A DNA stretch of 64,000 bases from Microbacterium psychrotolerans. Lineage in GTDB: Bacteria; Actinomycetota; Actinomycetes; Actinomycetales; Microbacteriaceae. This document shows, one piece after another, positions 6,399 to 7,996 of this stretch (its first letter is position 1; every line of letters starts with the position of its first letter). The position numbers and the translations under genes are program-made. The stretch covers positions 1-64,000 of the forward strand of contig NZ_JAVFWO010000004.1 of the NCBI RefSeq assembly GCF_031085295.1, in the 5' to 3' direction. Under the pieces are notes generated by a model. The model was given only the letters and a program-made list of their open reading frames with translations. It ran no database searches and was not told the DNA's origin.

Positions 6399-6692
6399 CT
6401 ACGAACGCTGATTCAGGATGCCGCGGCGCGAGGGGTTCGCCTCGAACCAGTCCGCGACGTACCAGCACACCGGGACGACCTTCCGGTCGCCGCTCTGCTC
6501 GAGCTCCTCGATCGCCCGCTCGACCAGCGCGCCGGCGTAGCCGTGGCCGCGGAACGTCGGCACGGTGTAGGCGCGCGTCATGGCGACGGTACGGCCGTCG
6601 TCGCGGTAGTCGAGCACGCTGACCAGGTCGTCGCCGCGGTGCAGCGTGTACCTCGAGGCGTCCGTCTCTTTCTGGAAACGCAGCTCATTCAC
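6399..6692 (-). CDS. GNAT-family N-acetyltransferase (short YjdJ-like type)
   Basis: A 97-residue minimal GCN5-related acetyltransferase. The acetyl-CoA binding motif A is visible as VPTFRGHGYAGALVERAIEE (about residues 46-65; R/Q-x-x-G-x-G/A signature), and the C-terminal CWYVADWFEANP matches the short YjdJ/YidJ-like subgroup (DUF4287-free, single-domain). I choose the GTG at 6692 rather than the one at 6698 because TAGCCT (6699-6704) then lies six bases upstream, fitting leaderless transcription. The substrate is unknown. Confidence 0.8.
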   Translation of the reverse strand: MNELRFQKETDASRYTLHRGDDLVSVLDYRDDGRTVAMTRAYTVPTFRGHGYAGALVERAIEELEQSGDRKVVPVCWYVADWFEANPSRRGILNQRS

Positions 6693-6883
6693 CCGCACAG
6701 GCTACGCCCGGCGGGGGCCGGCGGGACGCATCTCGACCCACGTTCCGGCGATCGCTCAGCGTGCACGCAGAAAGTGTCCGGCGGCCATCTTCCTCGAGCG
6801 GGGCCGACGCGACAGCACCGCCGCCATGGGGATTGAGCAATCTGTCACATTCCGAAACGATCGGGGCTCGGCATGCGTGCGAT

Positions 6884-6913
6884 TTGACGTATTCCGACAA
6901 AGTCGGTCATAAT
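6884..6913 (+). promoter_or_regulatory. strong promoter for the leader-peptide/regulator transcript
   Basis: TTGACG (6884-6889), an 18-base spacer and CATAAT (6908-6913). This is one of the best -35/-10 pairs in the window. Initiation about seven to eight bases downstream falls on A6921, the first base of the leader ORF, so the mRNA would be leaderless. Confidence 0.75.
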
Positions 6914-6920
6914 CGGCCAC

Positions 6921-7022
6921 ATGACTGACAACGCGCTGTATCTGTCCGCCCGGGAGGCGAACAGGACTGCCGGCATGATGATGGCCGGTCGCGTTGCCAT
7001 GTGTTGTCGAATGTGCCACTAG
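6921..7022 (+). CDS. leaderless Cys-rich leader peptide (33 aa)
   Basis: A 33-codon ORF starting exactly where the promoter predicts the transcript to begin, ending in Met-Cys-Cys-Arg-Met-Cys-His and a TAG. The two adjacent Cys codons are TGT TGT followed by CGA, all uncommon in this GC-rich DNA. Short leaderless ORFs with clustered Cys codons are known in mycobacteria as cysteine-responsive attenuators (established knowledge). Here the downstream gene is a winged-helix regulator 231 bases away. The peptide is probably regulatory through ribosome pausing rather than a functional product. Confidence 0.7.
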   Translation: MTDNALYLSAREANRTAGMMMAGRVAMCCRMCH

Positions 7023-7038
7023 CACGGTGACCCCCGTC

Positions 7039-7079
7039 GGACTCCTCCTCCGCTTCTGAAAACGGATCGCACGGAGTCC
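7039..7079 (+). promoter_or_regulatory. nested hairpin downstream of the leader peptide (possible attenuator)
   Basis: GGACTCC (7039-7045) pairs with GGAGTCC (7073-7079), enclosing a second stem TCCG/CGGA. It lies 17 bases after the leader stop codon, where a stalled ribosome could change folding. A second small stem (CGGCCT-CCAC-AGGCCG) is at 7152-7167. No T-run follows, so any termination would be Rho-dependent or translational. Confidence 0.4.
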
Positions 7080-7252
7080 CCCGAAGCACCGGTTTCGTGC
7101 GTCGATCACGCGCACCCGGATCCGCTTCGCACACCGCCCAACGTCGGGCACCGGCCTCCACAGGCCGACGGCCTCATCGCCTCCGACGATCCGGGCCGCA
7201 GCACATCCAACCCGGTTCCGCTCTCCGGGTTCCTCCCGCAAGGACCATCATC

Positions 7253-7996
7253 ATGTCGACCACCGCTCTCCTCGACCGTCCCACCACCGCTCCCGTCCGC
7301 CACCTCCGCGCCGTGAACACGCCGGCCGCGGTCGAGGCGCCCGCCGCGCCGGCGGCCGACGCCCCGCAGGCCTCGCGCGCTCTTCCCGCCGGCACCGCAC
7401 CGCGAGGCTTCGCCCTCTACGTCGGCCTCGACGAGGCCAAGGCCGCCGCGTCCGGCGTCAGCCTCGGCGTGATCGTCGACGCGCTGCGGCGCACGATCGC
7501 CGAGCTCGCGCCCTCCGCCGAGACCTACGCCACCGTCGCCCTCGCGCCGGTCGGAGCCGGCGGCCGCGACGTCGACGTCGTGCGCCTCGCCCTCCACGAG
7601 CCCTCTGCGGTCGCCCGCACCAAGCAGGAAGAGCCCGAGGACGAAGACCCGTCGACCGGCGGGGTGGTCGTCGACATCTCGCGCAAGCGCGTGCTCATCG
7701 ACGGCGAGTCCGCGGCCTTCACCTTCAAGGAGTTCGAGCTGCTGCAGTACCTCGTGCTCCGCGAGGGCCGCACGATCGAGCGCACCGAGCTGGTCACCTC
7801 GCTCTGGCAGGGCACGACCGACGACGACGCTCCCGGCGAGCGCACCATCGACGTGCACGTGCGGCGCCTGCGCGCCAAGCTCGGCCGCTACGAGGACATC
7901 GTGCGCACCGTGCGCGGTGTCGGCTACCGGTTCGACCGCCACGCCGACGTCGTCATCCGCTACGGTCACGGCACCCCGTCGCCCGACCGCTTCTGA
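7253..7996 (+). CDS. orphan winged-helix (OmpR/PhoB-type) transcriptional regulator
   Basis: A 247-residue protein with an OmpR/GlnR-type C-terminal DNA-binding domain (about residues 140-230: VVVDISRKRVLIDGE, FTFKEFELLQYLVLREG, TIDVHVRRLRAKL, TVRGVGYRF). It has no receiver domain with phosphorylatable Asp; the first 130 residues are Ala/Pro-rich followed by a small alpha/beta segment. It is therefore not a classical response regulator. The ATG has AAGGA eight bases upstream. The Cys-codon leader ORF in the same transcript suggests expression tied to cysteine or sulfur status, which is inference. Confidence 0.8.
   Translation: MSTTALLDRPTTAPVRHLRAVNTPAAVEAPAAPAADAPQASRALPAGTAPRGFALYVGLDEAKAAASGVSLGVIVDALRRTIAELAPSAETYATVALAPVGAGGRDVDVVRLALHEPSAVARTKQEEPEDEDPSTGGVVVDISRKRVLIDGESAAFTFKEFELLQYLVLREGRTIERTELVTSLWQGTTDDDAPGERTIDVHVRRLRAKLGRYEDIVRTVRGVGYRFDRHADVVIRYGHGTPSPDRF

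Follow-up and report, generated by a model that had tools for sequence, protein, structure and literature searches.

At the start of a contig of Microbacterium psychrotolerans (NZ_JAVFWO010000004.1), in the 64,000-nucleotide stretch that we analyzed (hereafter the window), the gene for an orphan winged-helix regulator is preceded on the same strand by a predicted promoter, a short leader ORF with clustered Met and Cys codons, and an untranslated stretch of 230 nt (Table 1). An earlier, sequence-only reading of the window had singled out this ORF as a possible cysteine-sensing leader.

Table 1. Features of the leader and regulator locus, with positions in the window and the evidence for each.
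Feature	Position	Strand	Evidence
Upstream element GTCACATTCCG, candidate operator, 77 nt before the leader ATG	6844–6854	+	Motif counts in relatives
-35 element TTGACG	6884–6889	+	TTGAC columns 1.9–2.0 bits in 93 sequences; two TTGCC by eye
18-nt spacer, candidate operator overlapping the promoter	6890–6907	+	GAC in 10-bp phase with the -35 GAC and with the GTC before the -10
-10 element CATAAT	6908–6913	+	Predicted transcription start A6921 (leaderless)
Leader ORF MTDNALYLSAREANRTAGMMMAGRVAMCCRMCH, 33 codons	6921–7022	+	ORF reading and conservation in relatives
Predicted hairpin within the leader ORF (CUGU-CGCC / GGCG-ACRG)	6941–6965	+	Consensus fold
Three Met codons, ATG ATG ATG	6975–6983	+	Codon conservation in relatives
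Candidate sensor codons TGT TGT CGA ATG TGC (Cys Cys Arg Met Cys)	7002–7016	+	Conservation
C-rich structured untranslated leader	7023–7252	+	Composition and fold z
Stem-loop 3' of the ORF stop (7039–7045 with 7073–7079), followed by CCCC, not U	7039–7079	+	Predicted fold
Hairpin AACCCGG/CCGGGTT directly 5' of the Shine-Dalgarno	7209–7231	+	Fold and two-sided changes
Shine-Dalgarno AAGGA of the regulator	7240–7244	+	Sequence
Orphan OmpR-type winged-helix regulator, 247 aa, without receiver domain	7253–7996	+	Pfam, profile, and structure searches

The regulator contains the C-terminal winged helix-turn-helix domain of OmpR/PhoB-type regulators. Its single significant Pfam match is Trans_reg_C (PF00486), at residues 152–227 (E 1.6e-20), and Pfam gave no match to a receiver domain, as the earlier reading had maintained. 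Among solved structures the DNA-binding domain lies nearest to GlnR (8hml, 8hig, and 8hih), with an E of 1.7e-23 for 8hml in a profile search and, in Foldseek, an E of 7.5e-9 and 42% identity to the regulator model for 8hig. The model has a mean pLDDT of 71; it is confident only in the winged helix, moderate at residues about 50–90, and below 50 at residues 1–44 and 104–131. The N-terminal segment was also seen within longer frames (799 aa, G274:C1:438687; 562 aa, G188:C7:193944), and the sequences leave room for this segment perhaps forming a wider domain family. Among 80 named loci, a GNAT gene lies nearby in 58 and a glycosylase-like gene in 75; these neighbors gave no clue to function.

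A clear regulator orthologue, at an E of about 1e-57 or better, is found in 144 of 149 Microbacterium genomes, and some match in all 149. The best matches in the other five (G039, G044, G046, G065, and G104), at E 1e-9 to 1e-20, are at the level of other winged-helix proteins. Two of these genomes, G065 and G104, are 99% complete; the absence there may be real, and the regulator may thus be dispensable in places. Upstream of the regulator, the leader ORF is present in 109 of 111 loci, mostly from Microbacterium, and the two loci without it (L019 and L051) begin at a contig edge and have no upstream DNA. The 111 loci count the window's own locus twice and combine named and unnamed sets that overlap; the 109 contain 93 distinct upstream sequences, which are related, so these counts do not represent independent events. 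Of the 80 named records, seven carry titles other than Microbacterium: three as Microbacteriaceae isolates, three under broader actinobacterial names, and one as Planococcus. This last record (L048, JASDDH010000010.1, 'Planococcus sp. APC 4015') carries a Microbacterium-type regulator locus with 85% protein identity and is probably misnamed or contaminated. Within the genome of the window itself, the CCRMC codon pattern occurs once, with no second copy elsewhere.

The predicted promoter (TTGACG-18-CATAAT, 6884–6913) is the sole sigma-70-like match in 6600–7400, where 0.1 would be expected from shuffled sequence, and 7 nt separate its -10 element from the leader ATG. The distance from the -35 element to the ATG is 37 nt in 72 and 36 nt in 21 of the 93 Microbacterium-type upstream sequences, an outcome favored by our anchoring, in which the TTGAC-like site nearest to 37 nt was chosen; in sequences from other genera the promoter-to-ATG spacing is 35–38 nt in 50 of 51. 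Because the -35-to-ATG distance is held at 36–37 nt in 93 of 93 sequences, a leaderless start at A6921 is a well-supported prediction, and both the near-consensus promoter and the leaderless-type geometry proposed for the 33-codon ORF fit these comparisons.

Conservation of the Cys codons had been named beforehand as a check on the leader, and it was clearly seen. Among the 62 distinct 33-codon ORFs of Microbacterium type, Cys29, Arg30, Met31, and Cys32 are each present in all 62 and Cys28 in 60. The peptide does end in Cys-Cys-Arg-Met-Cys as had been read, except that a His follows the final Cys, making its C-terminus CCRMCH. Codon choice is retained along with the residues: TGT stands at codon 28 in 55 and at codon 29 in 48 of the 62 ORFs, and Arg30 is encoded by CGA in all 62. 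In 40 crudely called genes of the window, TGT accounts for 6 of 118 Cys codons and CGA for 90 of 1109 Arg codons, in agreement with the remark that an uncommon codon is used twice here (TGT at 7002–7007, the third Cys codon being TGC). The Met codons of the leader are about as strongly conserved as the Cys codons, so what is sensed could be sulfur amino acids as a group and not Cys alone.

We then compared selection on the two halves of the ORF using uncorrected, pairwise dN/dS. Codons 19–33 gave 0.38 in Microbacterium and 0.40 in 37 ORFs from other genera, compared with 0.69 and 1.12, respectively, for codons 2–18. Over the whole ORF the true frame gave 0.49 in Microbacterium and 0.73 in other genera, moderately under the remaining frames (0.82–1.06 and 0.80–0.85), and the frame signal over the whole ORF is therefore modest. 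By these ratios, the behavior expected of a selected peptide appears to be limited to the C-terminal, Met- and Cys-bearing half. The N-terminal half carries a different signature in Microbacterium, where codons 9, 10, 12, 13, and 14 do not vary at any of their three positions among the 62 ORFs. Because of this invariance and the consensus fold, an RNA hairpin is suggested at codons 9–14 in that genus. Its letters are largely invariant and most of its pairs are constant or vary on one side, which gives no covariation support; its fold has a mean z of -1.47 relative to shuffles (40 sequences).

These observations bear on whether translation matters here at all. If a hairpin, a protein site, or a rut site were the conserved element, in RNA or DNA, the ORF could be open in one frame by chance and its translation secondary. 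The synonymous invariance of codons 9, 10, 12, 13, and 14, the hairpin predicted there, and the dN/dS of 0.69–1.12 in codons 2–18 fit such an explanation, but constraint in codons 19–33 is at the protein level, and the spacing of ATG and promoter, the open frame, and the terminal Cys/Met content survive nucleotide divergence. We regard this explanation as improbable. A Cys-rich peptide acting in trans as a small protein, for instance as a binder of a metal or of the regulator, is more improbable still. Its conserved Cys and Met residues are possible ligands, but the peptide matched no NCBIfam family and no significant Pfam family (best E 0.23), its N-terminal half shows weak or no protein-level constraint, and its position upstream of the regulator is kept.

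In the family as a whole, the Cys-Cys-Arg-Met-Cys pattern occurs in 251 of 398 Microbacteriaceae genomes, chance matches included. In 140 Microbacteriaceae genomes from 85 genera, we found the N-terminal segment of the regulator in 138 genomes and 84 genera, the carriers including several genomes of 1.1–1.8 Mb. The stricter string TGY TGY CGA ATG TGY (TGYTGYCGAATGTGY) was found at 89 places in 84 of the 140 genomes. At 81 of these places it lies on the same strand as the regulator and 217–575 nt before its conserved segment; in the window this segment begins about 150 nt into the gene, so the start codon is nearer than these distances. The other eight places are not so positioned, one of them being in a genome without a detected regulator. 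A stricter pattern, Met-Met...CCRMC, searched for in 297 genomes of the order, occurred in 20, all of them among the 23 sampled Microbacteriaceae.

Fifty-seven genomes have the regulator and lack the exact string. They yielded 55 upstream stretches (in G223 and G271 the regulator lies close to a contig start, and these two were omitted), in which we searched for ORFs of the leaderless type, defined as a TTGAC/T element 35–37 nt before an ATG ORF of 15–60 codons. A diverged ORF of this type precedes 43 of the 55 regulators, whereas the reverse strand has one in 1 of 55 stretches and shuffling yields 0.034 per stretch. The last 14 residues of these 43 leaders contain at least two Cys in 37 cases, one in 5, and none in 1, and they contain Met in all 43, in rearranged orders such as CSMCMCMCMCR, CACRRMCCSN, MCMCMCMCR, CACRMCCCC, and CMMMCCSMML. 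The 12 regulators without a leaderless-type ORF include 6 that have a Cys/Met-rich ORF by eye (G153, G160, G175, G194, G236, and G242).

Cys/Met content that is kept while its order shifts is as expected of codon sensing. This pattern also bears on a further explanation, an arrest peptide, in which the nascent chain MMM...CCRMC would stall the ribosome on a small-molecule, redox, or metal signal and not through tRNA shortage. CCRMC is near-invariant in Microbacterium and frequent in other genera, and the C-terminal half has a low dN/dS, as an arrest peptide would have; however, the diverged leaders retain Cys and Met but not their order, which fits codon sensing better, and the rare TGT and CGA codons are retained at the nucleotide level. 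We consider an arrest peptide unlikely. For codon sensing, the most likely sensor would be the ribosome, since it is the content of Cys and Met codons before the stop that is conserved, not their order, and the rare codons are kept.

The regulator domain also occurs in two other families, f6 and f7 (E 1e-10 or better). At the 16 orthologue loci from these families (L305–L320), a Cys/Met-rich ORF lies upstream in 8, with no convincing one in the other 8. Three f6 loci have ORFs ending in CCRRMQA or CCRMHA, at three f7 loci the ORFs follow the type MCPAGM.M.CVRCR (MCPAGMCMLCVRCR, ...MCMLCVRCR, and similar endings were seen outside Microbacteriaceae), and two further loci have ORFs ending in MPMLCVRDLTC. 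None of the eight Cys-rich ORFs passed the leaderless-promoter rule, and for this reason an extension of the leader into f6 and f7 is suggestive only. Separately, at L138 (genome G298, genus g6) an ORF ending in CCRMCTH lies about 300 nt upstream of an ORF that by eye resembles superoxide dismutase, an arrangement that may be due to chance.

The stretch between leader ORF and regulator is 147–251 nt long in Microbacterium. In the window it contains 100 C and 57 G among its 230 nt, and C exceeds G in all 132 relatives. Equally C-rich stretches of 230 nt make up 0.4% of the window, counting either strand, and none of 53 control stretches upstream of ORFs is as C-rich. Folding energy of the whole leader lies below that of shuffles, with mean z values of -1.67 and -2.23 in two sets of 40 sequences each, and the window's own leader gave -2.27 and its full transcript -1.23. 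Two-sided changes affect only 1 of the 23 pairs in the full-leader consensus fold (55 of 72 sequences), so a conserved global structure is not shown. Locally, the hairpin at 7209–7231 has two-sided changes at 4 of 6 pairs (5 cells), with 97.6% of cells paired, in 35 sequences, which are the alignable part of 72 non-redundant ones, and the figure holds for that part and not for all. Of the nested hairpin that had been read after the stop, the predicted fold keeps a 7-bp stem (7039–7045/7073–7079) and lacks the nested outer stem; compensation in this stem was seen in relatives by eye and is uncounted. No Rfam family matched 6700–7400 at E up to 5.

How this leader could act on the regulator was addressed by searches for terminators and for RNA pairing. 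Unlike a classical attenuator with an intrinsic terminator, the locus has no G+C hairpin followed by a U run (0 sites in 6600–7400). Because the leader is C-rich and without a U-run terminator, Rho-dependent control is favored. In mycobacterial polycysteine attenuators, folding of the leader masks the downstream ribosome-binding site (RBS). Such masking is weakly supported here, because pairing between the Cys-codon stretch and the leader is no stronger than in shuffles (RNAduplex, 132 sequences; mean z 0.06 for 85 from Microbacterium and -0.36 for 47 from other genera), and folding of the 78 nt that lead up to the regulator does not exceed shuffles in Microbacterium, at a mean z of 0.22 as compared with -0.99 in other genera. 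A complementarity between the ATGATGATGG codons and CCATCATCATG at the regulator start, striking in the window, was set aside: by eye, the Met codons are still present in relatives that lack that start region.

Leader peptides with cysteine codons, established or predicted, have been reported ahead of cysteine-metabolism genes (PMC4633059, PMC9094748, PMC9031893, PMC1262725). The mycobacterial polycysteine attenuators are described there as leaderless short ORFs with clustered Cys codons (Canestrari et al., 2020, as cited in PMC9094748 and PMC9031893). The leader described here is like them in having a short ORF, predicted to be leaderless, with conserved, clustered Cys codons near the stop. 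It differs in its brief run of Cys (CCRMC), interspersed with conserved Met, in its C-rich intervening leader (147–251 nt in Microbacterium), and in its target: the mycobacterial type precedes cysteine-metabolism genes, whereas the next gene here is the OmpR-type regulator, an unusual target that the earlier reading had already pointed out. The cysteine passages of PMC1262725 predict leaders at cys operons of Mycobacterium and P. acnes and at cbs of B. longum, with runs of Cys codons near the stop and no obvious terminator hairpin, and suggest Rho; as far as those passages go, our locus is alike in its Cys codons near the stop and lack of a terminator hairpin and different in its downstream gene.

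Leifsonia xyli is a member of Microbacteriaceae. It was among the genomes of the 2005 study, which surveyed the regions upstream of amino-acid and aminoacyl-tRNA synthetase operons (PMC1262725), and the cysteine passages of that paper name leaders in Mycobacterium, P. acnes, and B. longum only, and none in L. xyli. The literature matches listed in our search included no cysteine leader of Microbacteriaceae, no such leader before an orphan regulator, and no account of this regulator, which does not establish absence from print.

A cysteine or sulfur amino-acid signal is plausible from the codon content of the leader, and we looked for links to sulfur metabolism. The sulfate-assimilation genes of this genome are located away from the leader and regulator. 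At its sulfate-assimilation operon, a single locus of which 12 kb was inspected, no Cys-rich leader was found (ORF of 8–45 codons with at least three Cys in the last 12). Genes of the PAPS reductase family (PF01507) are present in only 23 of 140 Microbacteriaceae genomes, and much of the family may therefore rely on sulfur sources that are already reduced. We saw no association of PF01507 with the exact leader string, which occurs in 13 of 23 genomes with the gene and 68 of 117 without it.

The promoter itself may be a site of regulation. Some positions in its spacer are strongly conserved in Microbacterium (G 1.8, A 1.0, C 1.5, and T 1.7 bits) and weakly elsewhere. Further upstream, the motif GWCAYRTTNCG is present in 45 of 93 Microbacterium-type upstream regions, exactly at -77 in 41 of them; the reverse strand gave none in the same 93 regions, and other genera gave 7 of 51. 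Across 6844–6913 in the window, and in relatives, GTCAC/GAC elements recur at 10-bp phase, upstream of and within the leader promoter. Their resemblance to an OmpR-type direct-repeat site hints at autoregulation, although the binder could be some other regulator; MtrA, for one, binds GTCAC-type repeats. A search for a regulon with the full promoter pattern returned the locus itself and one place with three mismatches only, and a search with the upstream repeat returned one match, inside an open frame. The cysteine-tuned master regulator of the earlier reading is accordingly a conjecture.

GlnR is described in PMC10704036 as an orphan OmpR-family nitrogen regulator of actinomycetes. The regulator studied here resembles it in being of the orphan OmpR type, in having GlnR as the closest solved DNA-binding domain, and in its direct-repeat boxes; GlnR, however, keeps a receiver domain, and the candidate boxes here follow a 10-bp phase, as opposed to 11 bp for GlnR. 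We offer as a tentative idea, rather doubtful in its full extent, that this is a sulfur-amino-acid counterpart of GlnR: a core, receiver-less orphan regulator of Microbacteriaceae and related families whose sensor would be the ribosome, whose amount would be set by a Cys and Met leader, and which would autoregulate through 10-bp GTCAC-type repeats.

A narrower reading is one that we hold to be probable given the sequence comparisons above, namely that the locus is a leader-peptide attenuator responding to Cys, possibly to Cys and Met, and controlling an orphan regulator that is widespread and has a GlnR-like DNA-binding domain. In this attenuator the leaderless start, the pausing, the direction of the response, and the step at Rho or the RBS are all inferred. 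Transcription would begin at the A of the leader ATG, and a ribosome initiating at the 5' end would read the 33 codons and, near the stop, encounter Met and Cys codons together with the rare TGT and CGA. With charged Cys-tRNA scarce, and possibly Met-tRNA too, the ribosome would pause and expression of the regulator would go up; by analogy with the mycobacterial attenuators, stalling should have this effect. With ample supply, the ribosome would complete the ORF and depart, and the C-rich, structured untranslated leader would block regulator expression, most likely by Rho-dependent premature termination and less likely by hiding of the RBS through folding. Lacking a receiver domain, the regulator may have no input other than its own amount, the ribosome serving as the sensor.

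Leader-peptide attenuators normally control enzymes of the amino acid that they sense, and here one would be kept before a transcription factor. A translational sulfur signal could in this way reach many genes, through a regulator present in 138 of 140 Microbacteriaceae genomes. The arrangement points to a way of regulating a response regulator that has no receiver domain, and it provides a concrete entry point to an uncharacterized, widespread regulator.
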